Origin: a virus
IMG/VR virus record: IMGVR_UViG_3300036841_000114
Span: 1 to 20,221 of that record
Length of the DNA: 20,221 bases
Reading direction: 5' to 3' (one strand)
The position numbers and the translations under genes were made by a program. Positions 921 to 8,043 of the stretch are shown here, in pieces; positions within the stretch are counted from its first letter, which is position 1, and the number at the start of each line of letters is the position of its first letter. Below the pieces are notes generated by a model. The model did no database searches. It was not told the origin of the DNA and was given only the letters and a program-made list of their open reading frames with translations.

Positions 921-1166
921 ATGAATACCTCACAGCAAAAACCCGAATTCGTTCCAGTCCGTTGCCCCAAATGCAGCGCGACTCTATTTCGTATCAGTCC
1001 GACGACCGACACATTCTCGATCGAAATAAAGTGCCGGCGATGCACGCGACGCCGGCGCATGAAGATGCAGCGCCGCCTCGTAAACGTCTACGTCGTCATT
1101 CAGATTTCTCTTGAACCGCCTGCGCAGGCTGTCATAGACTCGAATCTTGAAAATCCCGCGCGTTGA
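921..1166 (+). CDS. Com-like zinc-finger protein (Mu Com family)
   Basis: The 81-residue product carries C15-P-K-C18 followed by a short spacer, then IEIKC38-R-R-C41. This layout (CxxC, about 19 residues, IEIKCxRC) is the signature of phage Mu Com, the zinc-binding protein that activates translation of mom by melting an RNA structure. An Arg-rich run (RRRR at 43-46) follows the finger and would suit RNA contact. The C-terminal 35 residues have no recognisable domain. A purine-rich AAGAAGAAAA precedes the ATG. A 6-bp hairpin (1158-1174) covers the stop codon and a strong terminator lies 28 bases downstream. No mom homologue is visible in this window, so the regulated target, if any, is unknown. 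Confidence 0.7.
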   Translation: MNTSQQKPEFVPVRCPKCSATLFRISPTTDTFSIEIKCRRCTRRRRMKMQRRLVNVYVVIQISLEPPAQAVIDSNLENPAR

Positions 1167-1193
1167 GCACGCGCCATATACTTCGCGCCATCG

Positions 1194-1237
1194 AGCGCCG
1201 GCGGTCCTACAAGGATCGTTCGGCGCTTTTTGTTTTT
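1194..1237 (+). terminator. Strong intrinsic terminator downstream of the Com-like gene
   Basis: Arms AGCGCCG (1194-1200) and CGGCGCT (1221-1227) pair perfectly, and the interior continues with a GGTCCT/AGGATC-type stem and a single bulge, about 15 bp in all. The right arm runs directly into TTTTTGTTTTT (1227-1237). This is a textbook Rho-independent terminator. It ends only 20 bases before the next start codon, so the gene at 1257 must either be transcribed by read-through or antitermination, or the structure works as an attenuator. Confidence 0.85.
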
Positions 1238-1256: not shown

Positions 1257-1616
1257 ATGAACGAATGGATTGAACTAGCCAAAAACTATGGATTGCCGGG
1301 CCTGATCATTCTCGCGTTCGGCGCGTTTTGGTATTTGAAGGTCTGGCCATTGCTGATCAGGCAGTTGGACGACGCCAAGGTTGAGCGCGAGACGCAAGGG
1401 AAGCGATTCGAAGAGCAAGGAAAGCTCTTCACTGAAGCGTTGAAGCTGGAACGGGACGATAACTCGCGCCGCTTCGATGAGCAGGGCAGGCTGTTTATGG
1501 AGGCGTTGCGCCGCCAGAACGTCCTGGCGGCCGAAACCCATAAAGAGATCACCGAGGAGCTGCGATCGATTGGGCGCCCGGAACGATCAATCAAAAAGCA
1601 GACGAGAAAACGATAA
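1257..1616 (+). CDS. Single-TM coiled-coil membrane protein (holin/UviB-like topology)
   Basis: This 119-residue protein has one hydrophobic segment (residues 13-33, with GLIILAFGAFWYL) near the N terminus followed by a long charged helix predicted as coiled coil, ending in basic residues. The overall plan resembles small BhlA/UviB-type phage membrane proteins, but I cannot assign it to that family. The coiled coil contains a 22-residue tandem duplication (43-64 and 65-86). The ATG at 1257 has no clear Shine-Dalgarno sequence and sits just past a terminator and a palindrome. The stop abuts the ATG of the next membrane protein, so the two are translationally coupled. A role in membrane permeabilisation or lysis control is inferred from topology and neighbours. 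Confidence 0.55.
   Translation: MNEWIELAKNYGLPGLIILAFGAFWYLKVWPLLIRQLDDAKVERETQGKRFEEQGKLFTEALKLERDDNSRRFDEQGRLFMEALRRQNVLAAETHKEITEELRSIGRPERSIKKQTRKR
1383..1514 (+). repeat. Two tandem copies of a 66-bp (22-codon) unit in the coiled coil
   Basis: Residues 43-64 and 65-86 of the protein starting at 1257 align without gaps. Each unit starts with Glu-Arg and contains the block RF(E/D)EQG(K/R)LFxEAL. The DNA copies have diverged, so this is an old duplication that lengthens the coiled coil by one unit. Confidence 0.7.
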
Positions 1617-1952
1617 ATGATCATTTTCCTCTACAACTTTCTGGCGTTCATCAACGCCGTCTACTTTTTGGGCAACGCTTACTGCGCTTGGAAGATTTAC
1701 AGGCTCAAGCATCGCTGGGGCATATATGTCTCGATCGCATTCTTCGTGGACGCGCTGGCCGGACTGGCGAGCGTCGTTACGCTCGGCTTCGGCCCGCGTC
1801 CTGCGCAAATCGTCTGGTGGTCGATCATCCTGGCGCTGGTCACTCGCCTTGTGGCGGCCGTCGGCGTCGCCGTTACGACCCTTTTCTTCATGGGAATACT
1901 CAATGGCGTCGGGAGCTATGCCAAAACTGAAACCAATACGGATAAGTCATGA
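1617..1952 (+). CDS. Three-TM small membrane protein, holin candidate
   Basis: The 111-residue product has three hydrophobic segments, roughly residues 2-24, 33-57 and 64-95, separated by short charged loops (KIYRLKHR after the first), and a polar C-terminal tail. Three-TM proteins of about 100 residues are typical of class I holins, the inner-membrane pore formers that time phage lysis. No holin family signature is recognisable, so this is a topology call. Its ATG directly follows the TAA of the preceding gene, and its own TGA overlaps the next ATG (ATGA at 1949-1952), showing a tight translation-coupled group. Confidence 0.5.
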   Translation: MIIFLYNFLAFINAVYFLGNAYCAWKIYRLKHRWGIYVSIAFFVDALAGLASVVTLGFGPRPAQIVWWSIILALVTRLVAAVGVAVTTLFFMGILNGVGSYAKTETNTDKS

Positions 1953-2422
1953 TCGAACTACCGATCACAATCTCAAATCTTGACCGGATCGCCGCCGCGA
2001 TCGAACAGCTCGTCCTGATCGAGAGCGCCGCGCGATTCACGTTCACAATTTCACTGGGAGACATTTCAAACATGCCAATTTACAAATCAGATCGACCCGA
2101 TTTCGATTTTCGCGTAACGATCACGGCCGCCGACAGCGAGGGCAATTCGATCCCCGATGCGCCGGTTCCCGAAGGCCATATGCTGACCGTGCTGAGTAGT
2201 AATCCTTCGGCCTTCGAGGTCGCGCAGGACCCCGGCGATCCGCGATTCATTCACGCCCACGTCGGCGGCCCGAATCCTGACGGCACGCCGAGCCAGGCGA
2301 CGGTCAGAGCGAACCTCTTCGATCCGGCGAATAACCTGATCGCGACGGGCGAGGCCTCGGTCACGGTCACAGTCGGAGATCCGACGGCGATCTCGGCAAT
2401 CACTCTCAATTTACCCGAATGA
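1949..2422 (+). CDS. Ig-like (bacterial Ig fold) domain protein
   Basis: This is a 157-residue protein whose residues 50-150 alternate in the manner of a bacterial Ig-like beta-sandwich, with DFRVTITAADSEGN, a loop rich in Pro/Asp/Gly, and the closing strand GEASVTVTVGDPTA. Such domains are often displayed on phage particles or bind carbohydrates. Two starts are possible: ATG at 1949, overlapping the previous stop, and in-frame ATG at 2072 (codon 42), which has GGGAG upstream; the shorter product would be just the Ig-like domain. No signal peptide is seen. Its location inside a membrane-protein cassette is unexpected for a virion protein. Confidence 0.5.
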   Translation: MIELPITISNLDRIAAAIEQLVLIESAARFTFTISLGDISNMPIYKSDRPDFDFRVTITAADSEGNSIPDAPVPEGHMLTVLSSNPSAFEVAQDPGDPRFIHAHVGGPNPDGTPSQATVRANLFDPANNLIATGEASVTVTVGDPTAISAITLNLPE

Positions 2423-2871
2423 GCATCTTCATCTCCAATTTTGGCCGCCGGATTGCGGACCTCATCAAGCAGAACCGCGCCCGGCTCATCAAGCTGGCGC
2501 TGATCGTGGCGGCAATTCTCGCCGCTACGATCGCGCTATATCTCAGCATCGAGAAGATCCAGTCCTGGCGGTACGAGAAACGCGTCCAGGCGCTCGAAAA
2601 GCAATATCAAGCGGCCGACGCCAGGGCGAAAGAGCTGGAGGCGCAGGCGGAGGCGACGCGGCAGGCGATTGATTCAAAGCAAGCCGAAGTCCAATTCCTC
2701 GAAGCTCGCGCTCAGGATGCCGAAAAGAAGCTGCAGCAAGTCCGGACAATCGTTCTGCCGCTGAAGGAAACCTATGAACAAGCTCGCAATACCCCTGTCG
2801 CTGCTGCTGATACTTCCTGCGCCGACGTTTGCGCAGAGCTCGCAAGACTCGGGCATCCCTGCCAACAATGA
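2419..2871 (+). CDS. Rz-like inner-membrane coiled-coil protein (i-spanin candidate)
   Basis: The 150-residue product has a basic N-terminal cytoplasmic stretch, one TM segment (residues 24-44, with LALIVAAILAATIALYL), and a long Ala/Glu/Gln/Lys-rich coiled coil (about 52-118), then a Cys-containing tail (DTSCADVCAELARLGHPC). Length, topology and coiled coil match lambda Rz-type i-spanins, which disrupt the outer membrane in the last lysis step. Its start overlaps the previous gene by 4 bases (ATGA). The last 98 bases are overlapped in the +1 frame by the next gene, as in Rz/Rz1 pairs. The partner is not a lipoprotein, so the call stays tentative. Confidence 0.5.
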   Translation: MSIFISNFGRRIADLIKQNRARLIKLALIVAAILAATIALYLSIEKIQSWRYEKRVQALEKQYQAADARAKELEAQAEATRQAIDSKQAEVQFLEARAQDAEKKLQQVRTIVLPLKETYEQARNTPVAAADTSCADVCAELARLGHPCQQ

Positions 2872-3223
2872 ATGCCCGGGCCTGGCGCGCGCGTGCTCGG
2901 CCGCCGCGAAGGAGTTGAAGGCGGCGAGGGATCTGATCAAAGGATATGAGCAGCAAGTCGCGGCGTCTGATAAGCGGCTGGACCTGGCGCAGAAGGAAGT
3001 CGCAAGCCTCAAGCAATTGAACGCGCTCGAAAGCGACCGCGGGAAGCAGCTCGAAGCCGTGATCGCGGCCGAGCGGGAGGCAAAGGCGAATCTGCTCGCG
3101 CTCAAGGCCGAGCAGGAGGCGCGGATCGCCCAGCTCGAAAAGAAGCTCAGCAATTCTCGAAAAATAGCGCTGATCGCGGGCGTGGCCGCCGTGGTTGCGA
3201 TCCTGATCAGCATCAAGAGGTGA
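2774..3223 (+). CDS. Secreted coiled-coil protein with C-terminal membrane anchor (spanin-like partner)
   Basis: The 149-residue product starts with a signal peptide (MNKLAIPLSLLLILPAPTFA, likely cut before QSSQ), followed by a periplasmic coiled coil (about 45-125) and a C-terminal TM (about 127-146, with IALIAGVAAVVAILISI) ending in Lys-Arg. The start lies inside the preceding Rz-like gene, in the +1 frame, with GAAGGAAAC six to seven bases before the ATG. The nested position mimics Rz1, but there is no lipobox Cys after the signal sequence, so it is not a standard o-spanin. A u-spanin also pairs an N-terminal export signal with a C-terminal TM, but anchors to the outer membrane by lipid, which is missing here. 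The function is therefore open: lysis partner or other envelope factor. Confidence 0.55.
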   Translation: MNKLAIPLSLLLILPAPTFAQSSQDSGIPANNECPGLARACSAAAKELKAARDLIKGYEQQVAASDKRLDLAQKEVASLKQLNALESDRGKQLEAVIAAEREAKANLLALKAEQEARIAQLEKKLSNSRKIALIAGVAAVVAILISIKR

Positions 3224-3243
3224 ACGTTGATGAGCGCGTTCAC
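3220..3243 (+). other. Hairpin over the stop codon of the spanin-like gene
   Basis: GTGAACG (3220-3226) pairs perfectly with CGTTCAC (3237-3243) across a 10-base loop, enclosing the TGA at 3221-3223. No T-run follows, so it is not a standard terminator. The following 26 bases contain only very short reading frames. Confidence 0.4.
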
Positions 3244-3297
3244 TGGATTCTGATGGACAGAGCGTTAATGTGAGTGGCGACTCTGACATCAGAATTC

Positions 3298-3334
3298 GGG
3301 CGGGCGGCTTAAGGGGCATAGCTGCCCGCCCTTT
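3298..3334 (+). terminator. Terminator- or attenuator-like hairpin upstream of the beta-barrel gene
   Basis: An 11-bp GC-rich stem, GGGCGGGCGGC (3298-3308) with GCTGCCCGCCC (3321-3331), has one G-T pair and a 12-base loop, followed by TTT and an A/T-rich stretch. It sits 23 bases before the ATG at 3357. The short T-run makes full termination doubtful; attenuation is likely enough to note. Confidence 0.5.
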
Positions 3335-3356
3335 AACAAATTGCCCAAAGGAAAAC

Positions 3357-4082
3357 ATGAAAAGACTGCTCCTATTTATCGCAATATTCCTCGCCTTCGC
3401 TCTTTGCGCTAAGGCGCAAGATACTTTCATCGGCGGCGGCATCGCTCCGGCTTTCACGGCGGCGCACGGGCCGCTCTCCTTCAAGAACTTCAACCCCAAT
3501 TCCTATCCGATCGGATTCTACGGCGAGGCCGGTCTCGGTCTCGGCCACGGGTTTCAAGTGCGAGCGCTCGGCGAGTATTACAACAAAGCGCTTTATCCCA
3601 CTCTGTTCAATAACAACCTGTCGAAGAATGAGATTCGGCTCCGGCCCGAGCTTCGTTGGTGGAGAGGGCGGCAGGAAGCGCGATTTCGAGTATTCATAGC
3701 GGGTGGGATTGATCTGTATCGCCAGGGCCAGACGGATCAGGACGTTTTCTCGGCGATATTCAATCCGGAGGTCGTCAAATCCGGTCTCAATCCGCTCTTA
3801 ATCCTAGGCTTGCGAATCAAGCAGCGCCACGAAGTCTATTACACGCAGATATTCAAAGACGATTTCAGCGGTCTCAATGATCGCGGGGTCAACGGCTATC
3901 GCCTCGGATATTTCTATTATCACCCCTTGTCTTCGCACATTGACGCGAAGGTGGGGGCGGAGGGCGATTACACGGGCACGACGACTTGCTGTGTAAACGT
4001 CGGGCAGGATACTCCTCGGCGTTTTGTTGATGGCGGTAACGTGTTTGTCTTGAAGATCAGGGCCGGTTTTATTTTTAAATAG
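3357..4082 (+). CDS. Secreted beta-barrel-like (outer-membrane) protein
   Basis: I chose the ATG at 3357 because AAAGGA precedes it by a few bases and it begins a clear signal peptide (MKRLLLFIAIFLAFALCAKA, cut before QDT); upstream in-frame GTG at 3270 would put a terminator-like hairpin inside the coding region. The 241-residue product shows alternating aromatic/polar strands (GFYGEAGLGLG, FQVRALGEYYNK, RVFIAGGIDLY, GYRLGYFYYH) and ends with KIRAGFIFK, the pattern of a monomeric 8-10 strand outer-membrane barrel. Such proteins are typical of host genomes and rare in phage late regions. Known precedents for phage-encoded envelope proteins act in superinfection exclusion or receptor masking; that role is inference here. 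Acquisition from a host is plausible. Confidence 0.6.
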   Translation: MKRLLLFIAIFLAFALCAKAQDTFIGGGIAPAFTAAHGPLSFKNFNPNSYPIGFYGEAGLGLGHGFQVRALGEYYNKALYPTLFNNNLSKNEIRLRPELRWWRGRQEARFRVFIAGGIDLYRQGQTDQDVFSAIFNPEVVKSGLNPLLILGLRIKQRHEVYYTQIFKDDFSGLNDRGVNGYRLGYFYYHPLSSHIDAKVGAEGDYTGTTTCCVNVGQDTPRRFVDGGNVFVLKIRAGFIFK

Positions 4083-4912: not shown

Positions 4913-6323
4913 GGATCTCGCAACGGAATGCGCCATAATTGCGCGAGATCTCGGCGCGCCGCGAGACCAGCTCGCCAATTTCTTCCGAGGCCGATATATT
5001 CCACAGCCGAAACAACTGCAATTCCATTCAGCATGCAGATTGGCTGATCTGCCCGACGGGCCTGATCAGATTGGATTCGGCGGCGCCCGAGGACCTGGTA
5101 AAAGCCATGCGGTCTTCGCTCAGATCGCTCTCGACGATTGCCATCGAGTTTCGAATCTAAAAGTCTTATATATCCGGAAAGTGGCCAAGAACGCGCGGGA
5201 ACAGTTCGAGGACTTGCGCCGCGGCGTGCTCGGCAGAATGCCGCACGATTACAACCGCCAGGGAGTGATCAGCTTCGGGAACGGCGCGCGCATCGTCATC
5301 GGCCACTTCAGAACGGAAGGCGACGTCGACCAGTATTTGGGCCTCGAATATGACGTGATCGTAATTGAAGAGGCGACGACGCTGAGCCTGGCCAAGTACA
5401 AAACGCTCAGAGATTCGAATCGCACATCGAAGCCGAACTGGCGGCCGAGGATCTATGCTTCGACGAATCCGGGCAACATTGGCCATGTCTGGTTCAAGGA
5501 GAGATTCATCACGCCGGCGCGCAAGCTGCAGGAGACTGACACGCGCTTCATCTTCGCCACGGTCGATGACAATAGATTTGTCGATTCCGGATATACGAAG
5601 AAACTCGAAGATAATACCGGCTGGAAGCTGCGCGCATACCGCTTCGGCGATTGGGACATTGCGGCCGGCCAATACTTCTCGACCTGGAATTACGATGAGC
5701 ATACTTGCGAGCCGTTTGAGATCCCGGCGCACTGGCCAGTATGGGGCGCATTCGACTATGGCTTCACTCATCCGTCGGCGTTCTATCTGATGACTGAGTT
5801 CGACGGGACGGTATTCATCGTCAGCGAACATGTCGAAGCGAAAAAGCTACCGAAGGACCACGCGGAGGCCATGGCCCGCATCGCATCGAAGCACGGCCGC
5901 GAGATCGCCGAGATTCCAGTCTTCGCCGGCGCGGACGTCTTTGCCAATAAGGGCGATGAGAATGCAAAGACCATTTCCCAGCAATATTCCGCATTCGGCA
6001 TAAATATGGTTGCGGCGCCGATGGATCGTATTTCGGGCTGGGGTGAGATGCTTGACCTGCTCGGCGATCCCGGGCGGGATGAAAACCCGATCCCGGCGAG
6101 GCTTAAGATCGCGAGGGATTGCGTAAGGCTGATCGAATGCATCCCCGCCCTGCAACACAACCCGAATAAGCCGGAGGATGTTTTGAAGTGGGATGTCGAC
6201 GATGAAGGCTCCGGCGGTGACGACCCGGCCGATGCGGCCAGATACGGATTGATGGCCAGGCTGATCGATCCGGAGGAAGCGCCGGCGCTCGGAGGAACCA
6301 GAAATCCTTTGATCGTACGATAA
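4875..6323 (+). CDS. Terminase large subunit
   Basis: This 482-residue protein is the DNA-packaging motor. The ATPase domain carries Walker A GGARGPGKS at residues 69-77, Walker B YDVIVIEEA around 159-167 and the coupling motif ASTNPG near 195-200. The nuclease domain has FDYGFTHPSAF (Asp about 294), FAGADVF (Asp about 354) and DDPADAARYG (Asp about 453), the three acids of the RNase H-like fold. It thus hydrolyses ATP to pump DNA into the prohead and cuts concatemers. The length fits compact terminases rather than lambda gpA. It overlaps the small subunit gene and is preceded by GGAAAAGG. A 196-base non-coding gap follows. Confidence 0.95.
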   Translation: MATASSSQIRLIEDLATECAIIARDLGAPRDQLANFFRGRYIPQPKQLQFHSACRLADLPDGPDQIGFGGARGPGKSHAVFAQIALDDCHRVSNLKVLYIRKVAKNAREQFEDLRRGVLGRMPHDYNRQGVISFGNGARIVIGHFRTEGDVDQYLGLEYDVIVIEEATTLSLAKYKTLRDSNRTSKPNWRPRIYASTNPGNIGHVWFKERFITPARKLQETDTRFIFATVDDNRFVDSGYTKKLEDNTGWKLRAYRFGDWDIAAGQYFSTWNYDEHTCEPFEIPAHWPVWGAFDYGFTHPSAFYLMTEFDGTVFIVSEHVEAKKLPKDHAEAMARIASKHGREIAEIPVFAGADVFANKGDENAKTISQQYSAFGINMVAAPMDRISGWGEMLDLLGDPGRDENPIPARLKIARDCVRLIECIPALQHNPNKPEDVLKWDVDDEGSGGDDPADAARYGLMARLIDPEEAPALGGTRNPLIVR

Positions 6324-6328
6324 AGTGC

Positions 6329-6356
6329 TTGCATTCCAACACGTTTAATTTATAGA
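6329..6356 (+). promoter_or_regulatory. Weak sigma70-like promoter candidate
   Basis: TTGCAT (6329-6334) and TATAGA (6351-6356) are spaced by 16 bases in an A/T-rich pocket directly after the terminase stop. Matches to consensus are 3 of 6 and 4 of 6, so this is weak alone. It is worth listing because it sits ahead of a run of hairpins that ends in a terminator-like stem. The bases from 6353 (TAGACTCAGATTTCCGA) recur imperfectly at 6408. Confidence 0.25.
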
Positions 6357-6362
6357 CTCAGA

Positions 6363-6513
6363 TTTCCGAGGTGGATTTTTCCTGTGATGCCGCAAGGCGT
6401 TGAGCACTAGACTCGGATTTCGATCTCGAAAAATTTTCCGCGCGCGCCATGGGCGCCAAGCGGTTCGCTTCTCGAAGGCAACTCGTCCGAACATTCGGAC
6501 CGGTTGCCTTTTG
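6363..6513 (+). ncRNA. Candidate structured RNA or leader between terminase and portal
   Basis: Five hairpins follow one another: 6386-6401 (six pairs including two wobble, GCAA tetraloop), 6418-6431 (TTTCG/CGAAA), 6444-6456 (GCGCC/GGCGC), 6458-6470 (AAGCG/CGCTT) and 6475-6510 (8-bp plus 6-bp stem). The last ends in a T-rich run. The whole gap has no convincing gene, in a region where almost all other neighbours touch or overlap. If the weak promoter at 6329 is real, a transcript of about 150 bases would result. Alternatives are a 5' leader that attenuates portal expression or a packaging-related site. The boundaries are estimates. Confidence 0.4.
6475..6513 (+). terminator. Terminator-like hairpin directly before the portal start
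   Basis: AAGGCAAC (6475-6482) pairs with GTTGCCTT (6503-6510). After a 2x2 internal loop, GTCCGA (6485-6490) pairs with TCGGAC (6495-6500) around the loop ACAT. The sequence after it is TTGTCGTTT, then the portal ATG at 6520. Stem strength suits a terminator, but the T-run is interrupted, so partial termination or attenuation is likely. Confidence 0.6.
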
Positions 6514-6519
6514 TCGTTT

Positions 6520-8043
6520 ATGGGCAAAAGGTCACGCAAAAATAGGTTTCGCACCGTCGGCGCGAACGCGCTGAAGGATGCTCCATCCATTCAAGCCGCC
6601 GCGTTGACCGCGCTCCCTTCCAATGGCGGCGAGTCCTCGGCCCCAGAATTTGATCCGGCGCTTGAATACGTCGCCGGCTATGGCCTGGCGTACAGCGCGC
6701 TCGAGCGCCAGATCCCGGCGCAGGCTCATGATCCGCGCGCGCCCGAAGTCACCTTCGAGACGTACCGGCAAATGCTGAACGATCCGGAGATCGTCTCCGA
6801 TGTTCGCACTCTCACCCAAATGGCGCTTGCGGACGGATTGCAACTTCAGCCTGCCGTCGAAGGCAAGCCCGTGGACGATGATGCGGCCGAGTTCGCCCAG
6901 GCCTTCGAGATTGCGCAGTTCTGCGAGAGGGCAATATCGAGCCTGTATAAGCCGCTCGAAGAGACCCTGGAAGGCATCGTCGAGGGCGCGCTTACTTACG
7001 GCCATAAGACGGCGGAGATTACCTGGAAGCTCGGGATGGGCCCGGACTCGAATAGGCTTGTCCTGGCCAGAATCGCGCAGAAGAATTACCGCACTCTGGA
7101 TTTCGTCGTTGATAAGTACTGGAATCATCTCGGCTTCACTCCGCGGACACCGGCGCTGCAGCTTCCGGCGCGCGCCGTCATTCCCCGCGAGAAGTTTTTC
7201 CACCTGGCGCTGCACGAAGAAGATGAGGATCCGCGCGGCCGCAGCTCGATCAGACCGGTCTATACCGCCTGGATGTTCAAATGCATGACCTGGCCGGAGT
7301 ACAAACGCTGGCTCGATAACTGCGCGCTGCCCTCGATCGTTGGTAAGACGGCGCCGAAGCAGCCCGGCGACGTCCAGCGCAATCCGGACGGGACCGCGAA
7401 GACCGGGGGCAAGCCGACATCGCCGGCGGAAGCGATGCGGGATGCGCTCGTGAACCTGAAAAACGCCTCGGTCGCGGTCCTTCCGAATGGGGCCGAAGTG
7501 GATCAGCTCGACGTCGTCGGCGAGGGCGCCGGATTCGAACGCGCGATCAACGTCGCCGATAGCCAGATCAGCAAGGGAATTCTCTATCAGATGCTCGCCA
7601 CGAGCGAAGCTCAGTACGGCACGCGCGCGCAATCCCAAACGCATATGCAGGTGCTCGACCTAATGGTCTGGTGGTTGAAAGGGAAGATCGCGAAAGCGGT
7701 CAAATGCGATCTGATCGAAAAGGCCATTCGGTACAACTTCGGTGATGAGGCGCTGCGCTTCACCCCAATGGTCAGCCTCGGCGACAGCGAGCGCCGCGAC
7801 TGGGCGGTCGACGCGACGGCCGCGGTCGCGCTCTCGCCCGAGATCACGGATTCGCAATGGAACGCAGTGACTGATCAGCTCGGGCTTCCGCCGGCGCTCC
7901 CCGGCGAACAGCCGCGCGGAATGGTCAGGCAAGCGCAGATTGCCGACCAGCAGGCGCAGAACCGACCGCCGCAAGTGCAAGCCCGGACTAGGCCGAGATC
8001 TGGATCTTTCGTGAGCGTGAGAGGAGGGCCGCGCAATGGGTGA
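6520..8043 (+). CDS. Portal protein (DUF935 / Mu gp29-like)
   Basis: The portal is the dodecameric ring through which DNA enters and leaves the head. The 507-residue product, read from ATG 6520, matches DUF935-type portals in length and in its central motifs: YGHKTAEITW, the Glu/Asp-rich FFHLALHEEDEDPRG, RPVYTAWMFKCMTWPEYKRW, and LYQMLATSEAQYGTRAQSQTH in the wing/stem region. The frame continues upstream to a TTG at 6400, but that segment is Arg-rich, contains the hairpins and looks non-coding. No ribosome-binding site is visible before 6520, which is odd for such a gene and may mean structure-controlled initiation. The stop overlaps the next ATG. Confidence 0.85.
   Translation: MGKRSRKNRFRTVGANALKDAPSIQAAALTALPSNGGESSAPEFDPALEYVAGYGLAYSALERQIPAQAHDPRAPEVTFETYRQMLNDPEIVSDVRTLTQMALADGLQLQPAVEGKPVDDDAAEFAQAFEIAQFCERAISSLYKPLEETLEGIVEGALTYGHKTAEITWKLGMGPDSNRLVLARIAQKNYRTLDFVVDKYWNHLGFTPRTPALQLPARAVIPREKFFHLALHEEDEDPRGRSSIRPVYTAWMFKCMTWPEYKRWLDNCALPSIVGKTAPKQPGDVQRNPDGTAKTGGKPTSPAEAMRDALVNLKNASVAVLPNGAEVDQLDVVGEGAGFERAINVADSQISKGILYQMLATSEAQYGTRAQSQTHMQVLDLMVWWLKGKIAKAVKCDLIEKAIRYNFGDEALRFTPMVSLGDSERRDWAVDATAAVALSPEITDSQWNAVTDQLGLPPALPGEQPRGMVRQAQIADQQAQNRPPQVQARTRPRSGSFVSVRGGPRNG

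Follow-up and report, generated by a model that had tools for sequence, protein, structure and literature searches.

The terminase-portal gap and its conserved module

The window, by which we mean the whole 20,221-base IMG/VR virus record analysed here, carries a lysis block followed by the small and large terminase genes, a portal gene of the Mu type, a protease, a decoration protein and the capsid; no close relative of this phage was found among annotated phage records. The terminase ends at position 6323 and the portal ATG is located at 6520, leaving a gap of 196 nt, with the coordinates reported in a first-pass annotation. The plus strand of the gap folds at -66.9 kcal/mol, compared to -56.1 +/- 4.2 kcal/mol for dinucleotide shuffles (z = -2.6), and the predicted transcript at 6361-6512 reaches a z of -4.3. 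The first-pass annotation had described five tandem hairpins in this gap, of which the gap and its better-than-shuffle folding were reproduced, while the five separate stems did not stand as listed. The features of the locus are presented in Table 1.

Table 1. Features of the terminase-portal gap, the adjacent portal gene and the second copy of the module (window coordinates).
Feature	Position	Strand	Evidence or remark
Second module copy (element 2): TTGAAC - 18 nt - TAGACT, leader hairpin, terminator-like hairpin 1194-1227 with T-tract	1111..1237	+	Model R1, 29.7 bits, E 8.5e-5
Promoter-like pair TTGCAT - 18 nt - TAGACT	6329..6358	+	Identical spacing in 9/9 gap elements
First copy of 14-nt direct repeat, TAGACTCAGATTTC	6353..6366	+	13/14 identical to 6408-6421
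55-nt insertion: CGAG, 37-nt CRISPR repeat, second copy of 14-nt direct repeat (6408-6421)	6367..6421	+	This phage only
Solitary CRISPR repeat GTGGATTTTTCCTGTGATGCCGCAAGGCGTTGAGCAC, stem-loop 6386-6401 with GCAA loop	6371..6407	+	CRISPR-DR33 match; core identity to arrays
Bulged leader hairpin CCGC..GCGCC..GGCGC..GCGG	6438..6463	+	3/7 pairs changed on both sides
Intrinsic-terminator-like hairpin 6475-6510 with T-rich tail to portal start codon	6475..6519	+	5/14 pairs changed on both sides
Portal gene, Mu type	6520..8043	+	Portal_Mu, E 2e-39; first gene past terminator

Related phages were gathered through their terminase and portal, and further ones through DNA searches. The same element was identified in eight related phage contigs, the window counted in, and in the relatives it is established immediately 5' of the portal or of a small gene intervening before it. 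It consists of a TTG-N18-TAGA[A/C]T promoter-like pair (family letters TTGCA[AT], 18 nt, TAGA[AC]T), a leader of 80-100 nt containing a bulged hairpin, and a hairpin resembling an intrinsic terminator, the U-tract of which extends into a start codon, in most cases that of the portal. The unpaired leader sequence is poorly conserved among the relatives. A ninth phage (L031), with a portal 57% identical, retains the promoter spacing and the terminator, while its middle hairpin is absent and its leader measures 65 nt. In the window, the hexamers lie at 6329-6334 and 6353-6358, and the promoter-like pair proposed earlier at 6329-6356 thus exists and is conserved, ending 2 nt further on. It is weak against the sigma-70 consensus (7/12), and the pattern TTGNNN-N17-19-TAGANT has two plus-strand matches in the window, both at the two elements, and zero on the minus strand. 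With a predicted start site at ~6365 and the terminator end at 6512, the RNA is predicted to measure 148 nt, which fits the small RNA of about 150 bases that had been suggested. We consider the architecture of this module well supported.

Covariation was studied on eight distinct sequences. In these, 92.8% of the cells are paired and 8/21 pairs show changes on both sides, values attained by 0/500 shuffles, while structures slid along the alignment are 23-46% paired. Since the set is small and made of kin sequences, and the alignment had been adjusted to the model, we regard the support as good, not overwhelming. Compensatory changes of the kind expected from a structured RNA are therefore present in the homologous gaps. 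The terminator helix is paired in 94.5% of the cells, with a layout common to all relatives, and the stem at 6475-6510 with its T-rich tail is confirmed as a strong intrinsic-terminator-like hairpin with conserved compensatory changes. The stems at 6444-6456 and 6458-6470 had been listed as two hairpins, which we reject, as covariation among the relatives backs the single bulged hairpin of Table 1; the stem at 6418-6431 can be drawn as a weak local stem and receives zero support from the relatives. Portal coding through the gap was likewise rejected, because in L006 a TAA stands directly 5' of the ATG and in L008 an extra gene lies between the hairpin and the portal; judged on these two contigs, read-through of the region by the portal gene is not seen in homologues.

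The surroundings of the element vary among the contigs with which the insertion and the element were compared (L002, L003, L005, L006, L008, L021 and L036). In L002 and L021, kilobase inserts separate the terminase from the element, which remains at the portal side. The insert of L002 (4447-6830, ~2.4 kb) encodes a 274-aa ORF without Pfam match. In L021, whose terminase is 86% identical to that of the window, the portal at 1559-3493 is of another kind (Phage_portal) and includes a 2'-5' RNA ligase domain; reversed ORFs and the gap element follow. A 70-aa gene is found between terminator and portal in L008 (4565-4777) and behind the element in L021 (from 6768), starting exactly at the U-tract. 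In L036 (contig IMGVR_UViG_3300037153_000860) the element precedes a portal stub and a small-terminase gene, so this contig appears rearranged; its terminase and portal fragments also look rearranged around a cargo which, between the terminase fragment and the element, includes a YhaV-like toxin scoring below the Pfam cut-off. Finally, the phage of L012 has a terminase 88% identical and is without a recognisable relative of the window portal; at ~980-1015 it carries a hairpin that is unrelated but ends in the same way (CTTTTCGTTTTTATG), ahead of the next gene.

A solitary CRISPR repeat within the leader

The relatives have a single copy of the 14-nt sequence that is present twice in the window, where the 55-nt insertion ends with a copy of the sequence preceding it, and the repeat therefore runs exactly into the phage leader. 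Its 37 bases start with GTG and end with CAC, as do those of the related arrays described below. The stem at 6386-6401 with its GCAA loop, which had been counted among the hairpins of the gap, is genuine; it is the stem-loop of the CRISPR repeat and is missing, like the repeat itself, in all relatives compared. At the curated (gathering) threshold no Rfam family matches the window. A relaxed Rfam scan gave CRISPR-DR33 with 27.2 bits (E 7e-4 for 421 bases), which stays below the curated threshold because the gathering score is 39.

The 22-nt core of the repeat is identical (22/22) to that of an array of 54 copies from the viral-contig scan (L079), next to which no cas genes were recognised among the ORFs scanned, and matches the type I-MYXAN arrays L059 and L062 at 21/22, while the runner-up core site within the window reaches 16/22. 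A plasmid search led to cyanobacterial CRISPR arrays with the repeat GTGTCCAAACCATTGATGCCGTAAGGCGTTGAGCAC or near variants and adjoining cas genes; those of Synechocystis and NIES-970 have 12 and 7 copies, spaced 70-75 bases apart, and type I-MYXAN proteins are named in Synechocystis and Nostoc records. A Leptospira I-B/Myxan repeat belongs to the same class, and its transcripts are processed by Cas6 (PMC9372919, PMC4758666). The 5' third of the window repeat is unmatched in any array compared and varies between organisms too, the full repeat giving at best 31-32/37 against the compared arrays; with these arrays it stays below the level that SRUFinder asks for, an identity of 90% or more across 90% or more of a known repeat. 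Assuming equal base frequencies, a core match over 22 nt that allows one mismatch would be expected ~1e-7 times per repeat in 40 kb of strand sequence, or, by our arithmetic under the same assumption, ~0.003 times against 17,823 repeats. From these sequence comparisons we hold the identity as a CRISPR repeat to be near certain.

The repeat is solitary, as no second one was found in the 100-bp flanks, where alignment was no better than for shuffles. The exact 24-nt repeat was found in no viral contig searched, while the relaxed core returned 14 contigs, and no arrays with this repeat were detected in 395 genomes from the phylum to which L019 belongs. Copies of the repeat class are also scattered elsewhere. 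Leptospira plasmid and viral records sharing flanks (L061, L072, L077, L083, L084) contain 1-4 copies, annotated cas genes being absent near those of the plasmid. Six viral contigs (L076, L080, L081, L071, L078, L082) contain single, paired or decayed copies, possibly representing solitary repeats or mini-arrays.

Concerning its origin, the repeat is known from one assembly, the near-identical contig L007 stopping short of the site. One may speculate that it arrived by recombination with a host array bearing a spacer against this leader. An array spacer beginning with TAGACTCGGATTTCGATCTC would point to entry of the repeat by recombination at a matching spacer; among 104 spacers of four arrays compared with these phages, no convincing match was found (best 15 nt). 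Virus-borne mini-CRISPR arrays (PMC6858448) are similar in that a repeat is followed by virus-derived sequence, although the window has one repeat followed by its own leader instead of a foreign spacer.

A second copy before the lysis block and a proposed gating of late operons

A covariance model built from the gap element also recovers a weaker, second copy of the module, element 2, at 1135-1239 of the window and in L008, L005 and L002, and a fifth case is L154, the one new element 2 among 85 matches of a wider promoter pattern in viral contigs, which were mainly coding or due to chance. The 18-nt promoter spacing of the gap element recurs in element 2, with similar letters upstream (ATTTCTCTTGAA), and the terminator of element 2 ends at or near a start codon. 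In G007, a 46-kb relative, element 2 is established between the end of the replication genes and the start of the lysis block; such an early/late junction is the position of pR'-tR' in phage lambda. A small zinc-ribbon gene (921-1166 in the window), kept in related records, overlaps the promoter of element 2 with its end, and the conservation of that promoter could therefore partly be coding. The loop of the leader hairpin at 1157-1173 of the window and its surroundings contain GCGTTGAGCAC, which agrees over 11 nt with the end of the CRISPR repeat; this match is missing in the orthologues and is probably due to chance. The sequence GTTGAGCAC at 1162 was considered as a second repeat and rejected as chance, since the orthologues are without it and the repeat stem is absent.

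Because the U-tract meets the start codon, a promoter cannot fit between terminator and gene; an mRNA with that start codon needs polymerase that has passed the terminator, which must therefore be conditional or leaky. The earlier proposal of a portal attenuator fits this arrangement well, and both it and the small RNA remain good readings. We propose that the gap is a late-operon leader, in which the promoter, the structured leader (80-100 nt, ~148 nt here) and the terminator that reaches the head-operon start codon would by default give a short terminated RNA, while portal and head mRNA would be made only by polymerase passing the terminator, coming either from the gap promoter or from the upstream terminase operon. 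Since the module is repeated before the lysis genes, a single factor opening both gates is plausible, and a dedicated antitermination factor would be the simplest reading for two gates so similar. Q-type antiterminators (PF06530 and PF03589) gave zero matches in four records, which may be fragments.

The late leader of phage lambda consists of pR', the 6S RNA and tR'. The module resembles it in having a promoter and a short terminated RNA ahead of late genes, copy 2 preceding the lysis genes where the early and late regions meet. In contrast to lambda, no Q gene was found in the four records, each phage has two copies with one of them before the portal, and the terminator touches the start codon; the likeness seen is one of layout. 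An ordinary promoter with a leaky terminator could instead insulate or tune the late operons with no dedicated factor, the CRISPR repeat being a functionless passenger. This would agree with the negative search for Q families, with the few portal copies needed and with the leader of L031, which does without its middle structure. However, the module occurs twice in each phage, where two late blocks begin and with promoter signatures that match, and a complete repeat right behind the start site is improbable as a random passenger, so we consider this explanation rather unlikely.

Control could also act on translation, if the hairpin by the start codon blocked ribosomes and were melted by a Com-like zinc-ribbon protein encoded before element 2, in the way that Com of phage Mu acts on mom. 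An overlap of the Com-like gene with element 2 is seen in the window and four related records. Outside the hairpin, the 40 nt upstream of the portal ATG contain no Shine-Dalgarno-like run, while the neighbouring genes have one. Nevertheless, the similarity to Com is weak (PHROG E 7e-4, zero Pfam matches above cut-off), and translational control alone would require neither the conserved T-tract nor the promoter, which makes such a gate improbable.

The discrete promoter and terminator, the covarying hairpin and the two paralogues per phage might also suggest that the two terminated leaders act in trans as small RNAs, with targets of their own or a pRNA-like structural role. Against this, Rfam is empty at the curated threshold, the L031 leader is down to 65 nt with its hairpin gone, and unpaired leader sequence is poorly conserved; we consider it quite improbable. 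An RNA taking part in packaging, for which phi29 pRNA had been named as precedent, was rejected: the phi29 pRNA family gave zero matches in the window at the gathering threshold and zero in 6200-6620 at a relaxed one, and L031 keeps promoter and terminator without the middle structure. The likeness to phi29 pRNA consists in a small RNA gene close to packaging genes, while the packaging machinery is different and the core structure is not family-wide.

The leader RNA as a candidate RNA anti-CRISPR

The repeat is intergenic, between terminase and portal, and starts 12 nt 3' of the -10 box of the predicted promoter directly upstream, ~6 nt past the predicted start site; the native leader and the terminator then follow. 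Such a position makes it a candidate solitary repeat unit, that is, an RNA anti-CRISPR (Racr). Published solitary repeat units are intergenic and often lie right behind promoters, and CRISPR-Cas inhibition has been reported for nine candidates that were tested (PMC10651486). No Cas families were found among the window proteins scanned. Like the Racrs of Camara-Wilpert et al. 2023 (PMC10651486), the window has a single intergenic phage repeat right behind a promoter with its stem-loop retained; unlike them, its repeat sits inside a conserved terminated late leader, belongs to the I-MYXAN/I-B class, has a short 5' part and is a candidate only.

As the leader carries a complete CRISPR repeat near its start, the short RNA is a candidate Racr and, judging from its sequence, a candidate decoy against bacterial CRISPR immunity. 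RacrIF1 acts by Cas6 binding and cutting, with Cas subunits tied up. In the same way, a leader invaded by one complete repeat of the type I-MYXAN/I-B class may be bound and cut at the repeat stem-loop by host Cas6, and Cas subunits would then be held in non-productive complexes. From the predicted start to the cut site there are only ~36 nt here, as opposed to ~70 nt in RacrIF1. Immediately 3' of the repeat, the late leader of the phage itself resumes (TAGACTCGGATTTCGATC...), with a 17/18 match at the same site of L005. Repeat and leader might form a self-made crRNA, and host Cascade so loaded would target the late promoter of superinfecting relatives, while the donor copy, flanked by a repeat in place of a PAM, would escape; we find this highly improbable. 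To the joint reading, a conditionally terminated late leader with an inserted repeat as a candidate Racr, we assign a probability of roughly 60%.

Present twice per phage, the module offers a defined target for learning how late genes are switched without a recognisable Q protein. If the leader RNA is a Racr, it would show how a decoy can originate, namely by entry of one CRISPR repeat into a phage transcript that was terminated beforehand, and the near relatives would serve as the empty-site control for that origin. An uncultured phage would in that case also contribute a decoy of the type I-MYXAN/I-B class, and the repeat class would indicate its host.
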